From Propionimicrobium lymphophilum DSM 4903 (GTDB taxonomy: Bacteria; Actinomycetota; Actinomycetes; Propionibacteriales; Propionibacteriaceae): a DNA stretch of 64,000 nucleotides. Positions 59,210 to 64,000 of the stretch are shown here, piece after piece. The position numbers and the translations under genes were made by a program. Within the stretch, counting starts at the first letter, position 1. Each line of letters opens with the position of its first letter. The notes under the pieces were generated by a model. That model was not told where the DNA came from and did not search any database. It saw only the letters and a list, made by a program, of their open reading frames with translations. Location of the stretch: NCBI RefSeq assembly GCF_000423485.1, contig NZ_AUIB01000001.1, positions 372,001 to 436,000 of the forward strand. Direction: 5' to 3'.

Positions 59210-59525
59210 CAAAATCCTTTCAATTGTTTTTCCCTGCTTAAGGGAAACCCAGGGGTAGCTAGACCCCAAACCCGGCTTTGGGCTTACATATAGAAGCGTA
59301 GCGCGTCAACACTTGACGTTAGTCTGATGGGGATCATTGGGCAGGACATTTCGCTACATAAATGAGTTATTGCACGTTGTTGCTAGGGCATTTCGCGTTT
59401 GTGACTAGGGTTCGCGTGTCCAAGCGGATAACCTGGTCAGGTGAATGAAAGTAGCGACTCTCATAGTTTTCGTGCCGGCTACGGGCCGGCGTCACGTCTA
59501 ACTGGCAGTTTTGCCGGTGATAGCA
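59210..59525. promoter_or_regulatory. Divergent promoter region of mdh and CNNM-type gene
   Basis: For mdh on the minus strand, TTGACG (59309-59304) and TAAGCC (59286-59281) are 17 bases apart. For the plus-strand gene no clear promoter was seen. A short palindromic hairpin, gccggc at 59474-59479 and 59485-59490, lies about 35 bases before its start. Confidence 0.45.
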
Positions 59526-60956
59526 ATGAGTGACTTGTGGGTTTCCATCGGCGTCATCTTCTTGCTCTTCTTTATCGGCGGAATCTTTTCCGCCTCCGAG
59601 ATGGCGCTGGTTACGCTACGTGATTCTCAAATCAGAAAGCTTTCGCATAAGGGTAAACGAGGCAAGGCGATCGAGAAACTTACGAGCGATCAGAATCGGT
59701 TTTTGTCTTCGGTGCAGATCGGCGTGACTGTCGCTGGCTTCTTGAGTTCGGCGTTCGGTTCGGACTCTCTCGCTAACAAGTACCTCGGCCCCTGGCTCGA
59801 TTCCATGGGAGTCCCGGCCTCGAACACTATCGCTATCATCGCCGTAACAGCGATGATTTCATTCCTGTCCATCGTGCTTTCGGAGCTGACTGCTAAGCGT
59901 CTAGCTTTGCAGAACACAGAGCAGTTCTCTCTTGCTCTCGCTCCGTTAATCGACGCCATCGCCACCATCTGCCGTCCGCTGATTTGGCTTCTCGGTAAGT
60001 GCACTAACGTCATGGTTCGAGTTCTCGGCGGCGACCCAAATGCCGGTAAGGAATCGGTGAGCGAGGAGGAGCTCCGCTCGATGGTGGCGAGCGCCGAGTC
60101 GCTAGGCATCGACGAACGACGTATCGTGGACGACGTTTTCGACGCGGGCGATCGCAGCCTGCGCGAGGTCATGGTGCCTAGAACTGAGGTTGACTTCCTA
60201 GACGGCAACGAATCAGCCGAGGACATCATCGACGTTGTAGTCGATAGGGAGCACTCCCGATACCCGGTAATTATTGGATCCCCCGACCAGGTGGTCGGCT
60301 TCCTTCATGTTCGCGACTTGATGAAGCTCGACGAGAAGCAACTCAAAGATCCGATTCTGACTCTGGTTCGCCCGGTTAAATCTTTGCCCGCCACCGTCAG
60401 GGTTCTCGTTGCGCTTCGCACGCTGCAGCGGGAAAACGCCCATTTAGCAATAGTCCTTGACGAGTATGGCGGCACCGCGGGTCTGGTGACGATTGAGGAT
60501 CTCATCGAGGAATTGATCGGAGAGATCACTGATGAGTACGACGTCGTGGACGCCGAATACGCCCAGCACCTTGATCAGCACGATCTGGAGGGGCTGACCT
60601 CATTGGAGGACTTTGAGGAGCGGGCTCATCTCGTGTTGCCGGAGGGCCCCTACGACACGGTCGCCGGCTATTTCATGGCCCAAATCGGACGGCTTCCGGA
60701 GCTTGGCGACGAAATCTTCTCTCGTCTTCGTCCTTCTGGGCCGTTAGGCGAAGAGGAAGGCAACGAGGTGCCAGTTAAATTCACCGTCATAGAGATGGAC
60801 GGTCGCCGTGCCTCGTGGCTGCGAATGAGGCGAATAGTGGCAGGCGATAGCGCCGGTTCGACGAATGAACAGGTCGTCATTTCTGATGCAAAATCTCGTA
60901 ACGACCTTGCTGCATTTCAGCATTCCGAAGATGTTACGAGGTCAGAAGATTCTTAA
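59526..60956 (+). CDS. CNNM/CorC-family membrane protein with CBS domains
   Basis: A 476-residue protein. A DUF21 membrane domain of about four helices (residues 1-180) is followed by a CBS pair (about 205-335; MVPRTEVDFLDGNES, VLDEYGGTAGLVTIEDLIEE). A C-terminal CorC/HlyC domain (about 350-435) follows. Relatives export magnesium or cobalt or affect ion balance; older annotations call them haemolysins. The ATG at 59526 is chosen over a TTG 15 bases upstream. Confidence 0.88.
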   Translation: MSDLWVSIGVIFLLFFIGGIFSASEMALVTLRDSQIRKLSHKGKRGKAIEKLTSDQNRFLSSVQIGVTVAGFLSSAFGSDSLANKYLGPWLDSMGVPASNTIAIIAVTAMISFLSIVLSELTAKRLALQNTEQFSLALAPLIDAIATICRPLIWLLGKCTNVMVRVLGGDPNAGKESVSEEELRSMVASAESLGIDERRIVDDVFDAGDRSLREVMVPRTEVDFLDGNESAEDIIDVVVDREHSRYPVIIGSPDQVVGFLHVRDLMKLDEKQLKDPILTLVRPVKSLPATVRVLVALRTLQRENAHLAIVLDEYGGTAGLVTIEDLIEELIGEITDEYDVVDAEYAQHLDQHDLEGLTSLEDFEERAHLVLPEGPYDTVAGYFMAQIGRLPELGDEIFSRLRPSGPLGEEEGNEVPVKFTVIEMDGRRASWLRMRRIVAGDSAGSTNEQVVISDAKSRNDLAAFQHSEDVTRSEDS

Positions 60957-60982: not shown

Positions 60983-62050
60983 ATGTCTAGAAAAGTTTTC
61001 CCCAAAATAGCGCTCGGCCTGACTCTGCTAGGCGCCGTTGGGCTTGCGGGTTGCGCCCAGCCTCCGGCCACTAGCCAGCCGTCTGAGACACCGTCGACCG
61101 GCAAGGTTCAGGAGAACTTCAAGGCGTGCATGGTCTCTGTTGAGGGCGGCTTCTCGACGCCGGTGGGTAAGCAGGCTGAGGCGGGGTTGTCAAAGAGCCA
61201 AGAGGACCTTGGGATTGAAACAAACGAGGTTGAGGCCGACGACATCCCGCGTGCCCTGCAACAGATGGTTAGCTCCGGTTGCAAGTTGATCTTTGGCGTT
61301 GGCGAGGACATCACGACCCCGTTGGAAGCGGCAGCCAAGACTAATCCCGACGTCAACTTCGCGCTGCTTGGCGGCACGCCAAATCAGCAGCTCGGCAATC
61401 TCAAACCAATGGTTTTCAACACTCACGAAGTGGGTTTCCTCGCCGGATACCTGGCGGCTAGCCAGACTAAATCCGGCACTGTTGGCGTTTTTGGAGGCCT
61501 ATTCGTCCCGTCCGTGACGATGTACCTGGATGGTTTCGTTCAAGGCGTTTCCTACTACAACGGTAAGAATTCCGCCGATGTCAAGGTTGTCGGGTGGGAT
61601 CAGCAGGCCAAGTCGGGTAGCTACATCACCGACGGCGATCCATTCAACAACCCGGACGCAGCTAAGACGATCACCAGCGAACTTATCGGTAAGGGCGCGG
61701 ACGTCATCATGCCTGTGGCCGAGGTTTCTAATAAGGGCGCCATCGAGCCCGCTAAGGCTGCTGGCGCGAAGTTGATCTGGAGCGGCGTAGATGGATGCAC
61801 AGAGAATGCTGATGCTTGCGACATCATCATCGCATCTGCCATCCGCGACTACTCGAGTGCCGTCAGCGACGTCATCTATCAGGCCAAAGAGGGTGAGTTT
61901 AGCAATACCGCTTACATCGGCACTTTGAGGAACGCGGGAGCTAAACTCGTCGGTTTTTCCAGTGACGAGGCCAAAGCCAAGATCCGCGAAGTCAGCGACG
62001 GAATTGTCGCCGGTGGTATCGAGGTTCACTCCGACGCGGCTGTAGGGTAA
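60983..62050 (+). CDS. BMP-family substrate-binding lipoprotein
   Basis: A 355-residue lipoprotein with lipobox VGLAGC (Cys about residue 24), a Ser/Thr/Pro linker and a periplasmic-binding-protein fold of the basic membrane protein (Med/PnrA) family: IFGVGEDITTPLEAAA, FNTHEVGFLAGYLAA, VGVFGG. The family usually delivers nucleosides to an ABC transporter. No permease or ATPase gene is adjacent. AGGAAGG lies before the ATG. The next gene begins five bases after its stop. Confidence 0.9.
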   Translation: MSRKVFPKIALGLTLLGAVGLAGCAQPPATSQPSETPSTGKVQENFKACMVSVEGGFSTPVGKQAEAGLSKSQEDLGIETNEVEADDIPRALQQMVSSGCKLIFGVGEDITTPLEAAAKTNPDVNFALLGGTPNQQLGNLKPMVFNTHEVGFLAGYLAASQTKSGTVGVFGGLFVPSVTMYLDGFVQGVSYYNGKNSADVKVVGWDQQAKSGSYITDGDPFNNPDAAKTITSELIGKGADVIMPVAEVSNKGAIEPAKAAGAKLIWSGVDGCTENADACDIIIASAIRDYSSAVSDVIYQAKEGEFSNTAYIGTLRNAGAKLVGFSSDEAKAKIREVSDGIVAGGIEVHSDAAVG

Positions 62051-62055
62051 GCAAC

Positions 62056-63456
62056 ATGATTATTGCTGCTGCAGACGGTTCCGCTCTAAACAATCCCGGA
62101 CCTGCGGGTTGGGCTTGGTATATCGATCGGAACAATTGGGCCGCTGACGGCTGGGAGAACGGCACAAATAATCAGGGTGAGCTCAAAGCGGTTCTTAACC
62201 TTCTCCGCGCGACTGCCCACACCGACGAACACCTGAAGATCCTCTGCGATAGCCAATACGTCATTAATACAGTTACGAAGTGGATGCCTGGCTGGAAGCG
62301 CAAAGGATGGAAGAAGGCCGACGGCAAGCCCGTTCTCAATCTTGAGCTGGTTAAAGCGCTGGACGAGGCATTACAGGGGCGCATGGTTCGTTTCGAGTGG
62401 GTTAAAGGCCACTCCGGACACGACCTGAACGAGGCCGCGGACACGTGCGCCAGAGGAGCGGCTACGGCTGTCCAGCAGGGTAAAGAGGTCGATCGAGGCC
62501 CTGGTTTCAATCTGGTCCCTGCCCAGGGGCTGCATGAAGAACCCCAGGACGAACAGCTAGACCTTTTCTCGGGCGGTTTCGATCCTGAGCCGAAAGACCC
62601 AGAACCCGCTCAGCACAGGCCGGATCCCAAAACCTCGAAAGAAGATGATTCGAAAATGAAACTTGCATTCATCGGATGCGGGAACATGGGGGAGGCCATG
62701 CTCTCCGGCGCGCTACGCGCAAGCGTGGTAAATGCCGCGGATGTTCGGGTAAACACGCACACCGAAAAGTCCATGGCCAGGCTTGCAGAGAAGTACGGTG
62801 TAGCTGCACAGGCCGATAAGGCCAAGGCGGTCAAAGGTGCTGATGTGGTGGTGATCGCTACAGAACCATCCAGTTACCCCGAGGTGCTAGGCCAGATTTC
62901 TGGTGCGGTTGGTGTCGACGCAGTTGTGATCAGCATCACTCCCGCGTTCAACCTCGAGCAGCTACGCGGTTTCTTGGGAAAGAGCGGGCATTTGGTTCGC
63001 ACGATGCCTAACATGCCCGCTCAGATCGGCAAGGGCTTCACGGGCGTCGTGTTTGAAGACGCAGTTGACGGCGCACAGCGTGAAGCCGTCATGAAGTTCT
63101 TGGGCAGCTTTGGGAAGGCTCAGCAAGTTCGCGAGGAGCAGCTCGGGGCGGTCACGGCGCTGGCCGGTTCTGCGCCTGCTTTCATCTACATGTTCATCTC
63201 CGCGATGGCAGACGCTGGTGTCGATTTCGGCATGACGCGAGCTCAAGCCCTGCAGATCGCCACGGCAACGGTTGAGGGATCAGCGGCATACGTGCGCGAG
63301 CGCGATTACCGAGTTGCGGACCTGCTTGAGGGCATCAGCTCACCGGGTGGCACGACCATTCGCGGCATCATCGAGATGCAAAAGCAGGGTGTACCCGCCG
63401 GCATCGTTGAGGCGATGCGCGCGGTGGTGACCAAATACGATGAAATGAATAGCTAA
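62056..63456 (+). CDS. Fusion of RNase HI and pyrroline-5-carboxylate reductase
   Basis: One uninterrupted 466-codon frame. Residues about 1-145 are RNase HI with all catalytic residues: Asp7 (ADGSALNNPGPAG), Glu42 (NQGELKAV), Asp65 (LCDSQYVI), His119 (VKGHSGHD) and Asp129. A polar, acidic linker (about 145-200) leads to Met201, where a complete ProC begins (MKLAFIGCGNMGEAMLSGAL). It continues through TMPNMPAQIGKG, TALAGSAPAFIY and ISSPGGTTIRGI to the end. RNase HI cuts RNA in RNA-DNA hybrids; ProC makes proline. Met201 could also be an internal start, but its ribosome site is weak. Confidence 0.9.
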   Translation: MIIAAADGSALNNPGPAGWAWYIDRNNWAADGWENGTNNQGELKAVLNLLRATAHTDEHLKILCDSQYVINTVTKWMPGWKRKGWKKADGKPVLNLELVKALDEALQGRMVRFEWVKGHSGHDLNEAADTCARGAATAVQQGKEVDRGPGFNLVPAQGLHEEPQDEQLDLFSGGFDPEPKDPEPAQHRPDPKTSKEDDSKMKLAFIGCGNMGEAMLSGALRASVVNAADVRVNTHTEKSMARLAEKYGVAAQADKAKAVKGADVVVIATEPSSYPEVLGQISGAVGVDAVVISITPAFNLEQLRGFLGKSGHLVRTMPNMPAQIGKGFTGVVFEDAVDGAQREAVMKFLGSFGKAQQVREEQLGAVTALAGSAPAFIYMFISAMADAGVDFGMTRAQALQIATATVEGSAAYVRERDYRVADLLEGISSPGGTTIRGIIEMQKQGVPAGIVEAMRAVVTKYDEMNS

Positions 63457-63469
63457 GTAGCGGTTAAAT

Positions 63470-63522
63470 AATTATCGGGTGCATGAAACTGAGCGGAAGC
63501 TAGGTTTGTGCACCCGATAATT
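63470..63522 (+). repeat. Long inverted repeat after rnhA-proC
   Basis: Perfect 14-bp arms, aattatcgggtgca (63470-63483) and tgcacccgataatt (63509-63522), enclose a 25-base loop. No T-run follows. It may be a protein site or aid the terminator just downstream. Confidence 0.6.
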
Positions 63523-63531
63523 TATGAGAAA

Positions 63532-63565
63532 AAATCTGGGGTGGGAAAAATCCCGCCCCAGATTT
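63532..63565 (+). terminator. Terminator after rnhA-proC
   Basis: A 15-bp stem pairs 63532-63546 with 63551-63565, with one G-U pair and a 4-base loop. An AT-rich tail follows. Confidence 0.8.
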
Positions 63566-64000
63566 GATTTATTTAATTACTTAACACGGCGACGAAGCAA
63601 AGATGCCAATTTTATTGAGATCGTTAGTGAGCTTGGTGACGTATACAACGGCTTTGTTTTCGTTCTAGCAAGCTTTTGCAGAGTGCTTTTGGAAGACTGT
63701 TTGAAAGACTTCGACGTGCTCAGAATATTTTCCGTATATTTATTTCATAGTTGAGGAAATCTGCAATTTTTTAAAGATATTAATAGGTTGTGTGGCTCTT
63801 AGTTTCTCTGAACAATCGGTTCTATGTCTATGGTGATTAAGTGTGGGAGGCTCATCTGGAAAAATGGTTTATTCACTATTTTTCTAATGTTCTAAGAATA
63901 CCTAGAGTCATGATAACCGGAAAAAGATCACTTTTAGCTGTAATTGCTAACCCCTTAAAAACACTGAATCTGCACAGTGTGTTACCGTTGTGTCCGTATT
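63566..64000. other. AT-rich region without recognisable gene
   Basis: These 435 bases are clearly richer in A and T than the rest of the window. Short frames exist on both strands; the longest on the plus strand begins inside the terminator and resembles nothing. A minus-strand frame ends in basic residues (LLRRRVK) but has no start or ribosome site. It may be an upstream region of the next gene. Confidence 0.4.

Follow-up and report, generated by a model that had tools for sequence, protein, structure and literature searches.

A Fused RNase HI–ProC Gene Conserved in Two Genera of Propionibacteriaceae

The Fused Gene and Its Distribution

A gene encoding ribonuclease HI (RNase HI) and a domain of the pyrroline-5-carboxylate (P5C) reductase family (ProC) in one frame was found in a 64,000-nucleotide stretch of the genome of Propionimicrobium lymphophilum DSM 4903 (GCF_000423485.1, contig NZ_AUIB01000001.1, positions 372,001 to 436,000 of the forward strand), which was analysed as a whole and is termed the window. 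The frame of 466 codons runs without interruption from RNase HI through a linker into ProC (Table 1), and Pfam recognizes RNase_H at residues 5–136 (E 1e-31), F420_oxidored (PF03807, the Rossmann domain of ProC) at residues 202–295, and P5CR_dimer (PF14748) at residues 360–464 (E 1e-30). In addition, the NCBIfam model TIGR00112 for proC scores the same frame at 230.9 bits, above its curated cut-off of 196.75.

An equivalent open reading frame (L002:1501-2871) was disclosed in G012, a genome that consists of one contig and belongs to a different genus of the family, where it is likewise free of stops, is 51% identical to the window's frame from end to end, and contains a ProC domain that also passes the TIGR00112 cut-off. 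Identity is unevenly distributed between the two halves, RNase HI reaching 75% and ProC 39%. Since a second genus carries the frame without a stop, no local sequence error is at hand and the fusion is genuine. The first-pass annotation of this DNA, which had read both domains as one 466-residue protein with no stop in the linker, was thus borne out.

The same domain pair was sought among relatives and mapped on trees. A match through both domains was obtained in two of 198 genomes of the family, namely those of P. lymphophilum and G012, which are sisters in both domain trees. No further fusion was encountered among the matches in the samples of the order (392 genomes) and the class (395 genomes), the thresholds of which were such that a close fusion would head the list and a very divergent one could stay hidden. 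Similarly, ProC is contained in only these two of the 108 RNase HI frames read in the fetched loci, and viral contigs yielded RNase HI once and no fusion. The first-pass annotation knew of no such pairing, and none was found in the literature searched; the RNase HI–ProC fusion is therefore apparently undescribed so far. A well-studied precedent in which RNase HI is linked with a metabolic enzyme of unrelated function is given by the RNase HI–CobC proteins (PMC7466739).

Each of the two genomes harbors one ProC match and one RNase HI (PF00075), together with one RNase HII and with full-length proA and proB above cut-off. No true ornithine cyclodeaminase was found in the P. lymphophilum genome, where the sole match to that enzyme is the fused ProC itself. 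Judged by this gene content, the fusion is the only RNase HI and the only ProC of the cell, and if proline synthesis runs to its last step, that step would depend on it.

Other patterns of proline genes were met among the genomes compared. Two genomes of genus g8 (G007 and G030; 1.6–1.7 Mb) are without proA, show weak or fragmentary matches to proB, and retain ProC, the match in G030 containing an in-frame TGA. A further genome (G016) has three ProC-like genes (L167, L168, and L169), two of which are extremely divergent, their terminal branches in the tree being about 4 changes per column long.

Table 1. Coordinates of the fused gene, its parts, and its neighbours in the window
Feature	Position	Strand	Evidence
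Fused reading frame RNase HI–linker–ProC, 466 aa	62056..63456	+	Pfam; TIGR00112; homologous fused frame L002:1501-2871
RNase HI core, residues 1–151	62056..62508	+	Pfam; alignment to E. coli RNase HI structures; invariance; model pLDDT
Acidic, predicted disordered linker, residues 146–200	62491..62655	+	Alignment to relatives' tails; pLDDT
QLDLF peptide, residues 167–171	62554..62568	+	Match to sliding-clamp-binding consensus (PMC4549789); homologous tails with [E/Q]xDLF
ProC (P5C reductase) domain, residues 201–466	62656..63453	+	Pfam; TIGR00112; solved ProC structures matched
ATG of Met201, candidate internal start for free ProC	62656..62658	+	ATG also at the ProC start in G012
Glu270 at the position of the coenzyme-anchoring lysine of V-K-P (MtP5CR Lys80)	62863..62865	+	Alignment; PMC4522605, PMC4626632
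Motif E S-P-G-G-T-T, residues 429–434, proline/P5C-binding loop, kept	63340..63357	+	Alignment; motif from PMC4522605
BMP-type lipoprotein gene, upstream with a 5-base gap, ancestral neighbour	60983..62050	+	Reading frames; locus comparison
CBS/hemolysin-type membrane protein gene, ancestral neighbour	59511..60956	+	Reading frames; locus comparison
Terminator-like hairpin with a stem of 15 pairs and a T-rich tail, 3' of the fusion	63532..63565	+	Hairpin scan

The RNase HI Domain and Its Tail

The catalytic set of the RNase HI domain is composed of D7, E42, D65, H119, and D129, which align with D10, E48, D70, H124, and D134 in the structures of E. coli RNase HI. All five positions are invariant in 24 sequences (the window and 23 actinobacterial homologues), in agreement with the first-pass annotation, which had judged all catalytic residues to be kept. 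The core is predicted with a per-residue confidence (pLDDT) mostly above 90, and the two fused proteins are sisters in the RNase HI tree (support 93). The domain probably cleaves RNA in RNA–DNA hybrids.

The segment behind the core had been described as an acidic linker of about 55 residues. Its acidity and length were confirmed, but it is more than a linker, as it is the C-terminal tail that actinobacterial RNase HI normally has, with a conserved [E/Q]xDLF peptide. The start of the segment is homologous to the tails of unfused actinobacterial enzymes, residues 155–199 are predicted to be disordered (pLDDT below 50), and between the two fused genera nothing is conserved beyond the first residues and the DLF peptide.

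The peptide reads QLDLF in the window and QPDLF in G012, lies in a flexible segment, and matches the sliding-clamp-binding consensus Q-L-x-L-F (PMC4549789). The pattern [QE]x[DSEGAT]LF is present in 63% of 139 distinct tails, compared with 1% in per-tail shuffles, and the majority of tails have it in 15 of the 22 genus-level groups, compared with 0.23 groups expected. Examples of [E/Q]xDLF are found at L074:5424-5894 and L031:5418-5870, among the RNase HI tails of loci L031–L110. At the place where the replicase of the P. lymphophilum genome would be expected to carry its own clamp motif, it has what we take to be the corresponding sequence, GQDSLLGG. Under the terms used, the literature search returned no paper on RNase HI with the beta clamp in actinobacteria. 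The sequence pattern suggests that the tail peptide may bind the clamp, DnaN.

The Ancestral Locus

In the relatives, RNase HI is built from the core, a disordered and poorly conserved tail, and usually a further domain. Among the 45 unfused tails scanned, this domain was DUF4440 in 28, GNAT in three (the Nocardioides luteus group), an alpha/beta hydrolase in one (Actinomyces urinae), and never ProC. Representative loci are L074:5004-5894 for DUF4440, L034:3792-4757 for GNAT, and L093:5001-7064 for the alpha/beta hydrolase. No paper pairing RNase HI with DUF4440 was found under the terms used.

The gene order CBS–BMP–RNase HI–metG occurs in Propionibacterium sp. oral taxon 192 (L049), and G012 displays CBS–BMP–fusion–metG. 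Because this order is shared, the fusion occupies the ancestral locus of rnhA, and ProC stands where DUF4440 would be; DUF4440 itself was undetected anywhere in the P. lymphophilum and G012 genomes. What stands out on this comparison of loci is that ProC has displaced the DUF4440 domain with which the tail usually ends. A different origin, in which an ancestral proC adjacent to rnhA was joined to it through a lost stop, is disfavoured, as ProC lies elsewhere in every listed unfused relative and metG ancestrally follows RNase HI.

In the P. lymphophilum genome, metG is no longer found 3' of the fusion and is replaced by an AT-rich stretch and tRNA genes; since metG directly follows the fusion in G012, this side of the locus was rearranged in the window's genome. 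The AT-rich DNA (39–44% GC vs about 56%) spans about 1 kb, from 63457–64000 of the window to L142:5900, holds no sizeable gene, and ends at a tRNA-Val gene on the opposite strand.

Expression and a Candidate Internal Start

The fusion starts 5 bases past the stop of the BMP lipoprotein gene, which makes coupled translation likely. The promoter scan gave one match against 2.2 expected and no signal for a separate proC promoter. The number of terminator-like sites was not above chance overall, yet the downstream stem listed in Table 1 is by far the longest found.

The ATG of Met201 had been assigned only a weak ribosome site. This assessment was not upheld, for the predicted pairing with the anti-Shine–Dalgarno sequence is no worse there than at Met1, with −5.6 kcal/mol at the internal ATG and −4.0 kcal/mol at the annotated start. 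The corresponding values in G012 are −6.9 and −4.2 kcal/mol, and a GGAAGG lies 5–6 bases before its internal ATG. It is hence conceivable, albeit on balance unlikely, that two products are made, the full-length fusion and a free ProC starting at Met201 (Met192 in G012), which would assemble into ProC oligomers in which only some chains bear RNase HI. This proposal draws on the better pairing at the internal sites and on the retention of an ATG at the ProC start in both genomes, the rest of the linker not being kept. Among the ATGs of the surrounding DNA, however, 23% and 13% reach pairing this good, the purine stretch of the window sits further upstream than would suit a good site, and the comparison comprises two sequences. 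As such pairing is common by chance, extra free ProC would be no more than a possibility. The full-length chain is probably the main product.

State and Ancestry of the ProC Domain

The ProC half is complete in length and belongs to the expected fold family, so that the statement of the first-pass annotation that the whole of ProC is kept holds to this extent; it does not hold for the conserved residues. Six of 32 near-invariant positions are changed in the window and 12 of 32 in G012, the most of any row in the alignment, compared with a median of one in other ProCs. In the window, the V-K-P loop reads T-E-P, Glu270 taking the position of the coenzyme-anchoring lysine; V-K-P is kept in G012. 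This lysine contacts the pyrophosphate of the coenzyme (PMC4522605, PMC4626632) and has been described as "present in all representatives of P5CRs" (PMC4522605). Owing to its replacement, the domain is ProC by descent and not a proven P5C reductase. Motif E, in turn, is intact as SPGGTT in the window, including the substrate-binding Ser and Thr, and reads T-P-A-G-T-T in G012. The change from Ala to Pro at position 296, another of the window's six, is common to the window, G012, and the stand-alone ProC of Acetoanaerobium, and for this reason need not be harmful.

The identity of the fused pair in ProC is lower than in any of the 168 pairs of unfused genera whose RNase HI is 70–80% identical; these pairs are not independent of one another. 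This may indicate that ProC diverged faster after the fusion, that it came from different sources, or that it was already distant. In the structure model, the ProC half, which had no usable aligned relatives, is of low confidence. Among solved structures, 3gt0 matches the domain best. The two fused domains are sisters in the ProC tree (100/99) and fall outside the clade of native actinomycete ProCs (97/97); placement with the native ProCs was not rejected by the approximately unbiased test (p = 0.185), and the branches are long. For these two reasons, a firm horizontal transfer of ProC is not claimed.

These observations raise the alternative that the ProC half has ceased to be an ordinary P5C reductase, having either drifted or taken up another role, such as acting on another imine substrate or serving RNase HI as a module for oligomerisation or coenzyme sensing. 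Glu270, the 12 changed positions of G012, and the exceptionally low identity of the pair speak for it. On the other side stand the intact proA and proB with nothing else found in the genome for the last step, the TIGR00112 cut-off passed in both proteins, and the retention of the motif E Ser and Thr in the window and of V-K-P in G012, in view of which an altered ProC is considered rather improbable. The first-pass description of two apparently active enzymes is accordingly sustained for the catalytic residues of RNase HI and the domain completeness of ProC, but not for ProC activity, which the unusual divergence and the lost lysine make uncertain.

Interpretation and Comparison with Known Systems

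The locus is probably best explained by a real gene fusion that reached fixation in one lineage of small-genome Propionibacteriaceae, both fused genera being small-genome propionic-acid bacteria. The ancestral protein would have consisted of the RNase HI core, the disordered tail with [E/Q]xDLF, and a DUF4440-type domain. The DUF4440 part would have been lost, a complete proC joined in frame behind the tail, and the separate proC given up. The two domains would then act independently, like beads on a string: RNase HI would remove RNA from RNA–DNA hybrids, perhaps held near replication via QLDLF on the sliding clamp, and the ProC end would oligomerise and reduce P5C to proline.

By analogy with RNase HI–CobC, the protein most likely works as two autonomous enzymes on one chain. 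The RNase HI–CobC/acid phosphatase proteins (MSMEG_4305, Rv2228c, and SCO2299) share the arrangement of an N-terminal RNase HI, a variable linker (mean 55.5 residues, PMC7466739), and an unrelated biosynthetic enzyme, and their C-terminal enzyme also diverges faster than RNase HI. In these proteins of Actinomycetales, the domains are independent in vivo, and fixation was attributed by the authors to drift (PMC7466739). The partner differs, being the cobalamin-synthesis phosphatase CobC, of the phosphoglycerate-mutase type, there and ProC (Rossmann domain and P5CR_dimer) here; moreover, M. smegmatis possesses a second RNase HI gene, whereas the window's fusion is the sole RNase HI and the sole ProC. 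The model PRK07238 (NF005567) scores the fused frame at 19.4 bits against a cut-off of 326 and no CobC-type Pfam match was obtained; lacking the CobC domain, the fusion falls outside that family.

Two further groups are related to the halves of the protein. Unfused RNase HI with a DUF4440 tail (PRK06548-like; L074 of Nocardioides, L132) has a homologous core and the [E/Q]xDLF tail, with close relatives at the same locus of BMP, CBS, and metG, but its C-terminal domain is DUF4440, GNAT, or an alpha/beta hydrolase and never ProC. Stand-alone ProC (TIGR00112) agrees in full domain length, motif E, and the dimerisation domain and is distinguished from the fused copy by the N-terminal RNase HI, the lysine-to-Glu exchange, and the unusual divergence of the latter.

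Several points weigh against the proposed fixation of a two-enzyme fusion. An internal start with an acceptable Shine–Dalgarno sequence is present in both genomes, so that separate ProC may also be made; the near-invariant positions lost from ProC leave normal P5C reductase activity uncertain; and DUF4440 is also undetected in an unfused relative (G013), which implies that the loss of a detectable DUF4440 is not specific to the fusion. The clamp reading, for its part, relies on a five-residue motif and is weaker for most relatives, because their first residue is E rather than Q.

A more far-reaching proposal regards actinobacterial RNase HI as a clamp-tethered enzyme with an exchangeable C-terminal domain (DUF4440, GNAT, alpha/beta hydrolase, or ProC), so that in this lineage the ProC oligomer would display several RNase HI domains and clamp peptides, and hybrid removal would come to depend on ProC assembly and on the coenzyme or proline state; we hold this to be improbable. 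Functional coupling, by which NADPH or proline binding to the ProC oligomer would regulate RNase HI or concentrate it at hybrids, is more doubtful still. The C-terminal partner of Rv2228c did influence RNase activity in vitro (PMC7466739), but the linker here is long and predicted to be disordered and is unconserved between the genera save for its first residues and the DLF peptide, and the MSMEG_4305 domains are functionally dissociated in vivo (PMC7466739). An artefact, whether two adjacent genes joined via a lost stop or an assembly frameshift, is ruled out by the stop-free equivalent in the independent genome of another genus, and relatives carry the same tail on RNase HI without ProC; nothing was found in favour of an artefact.

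Implications

The fusion of RNase HI and ProC provides a natural case in which two important, unrelated activities would have been locked together in a single gene whose ancestral state can still be seen in the relatives, and it may thereby serve the question of whether such fusions are fixed by drift or for their function. The general point is perhaps weightier, namely that many RNase HI proteins of Actinomycetota carry a conserved peptide resembling a clamp motif and a last domain that is swapped. Binding of this tail peptide to DnaN, if it occurs, would point to a way in which RNase HI reaches replication in these bacteria.
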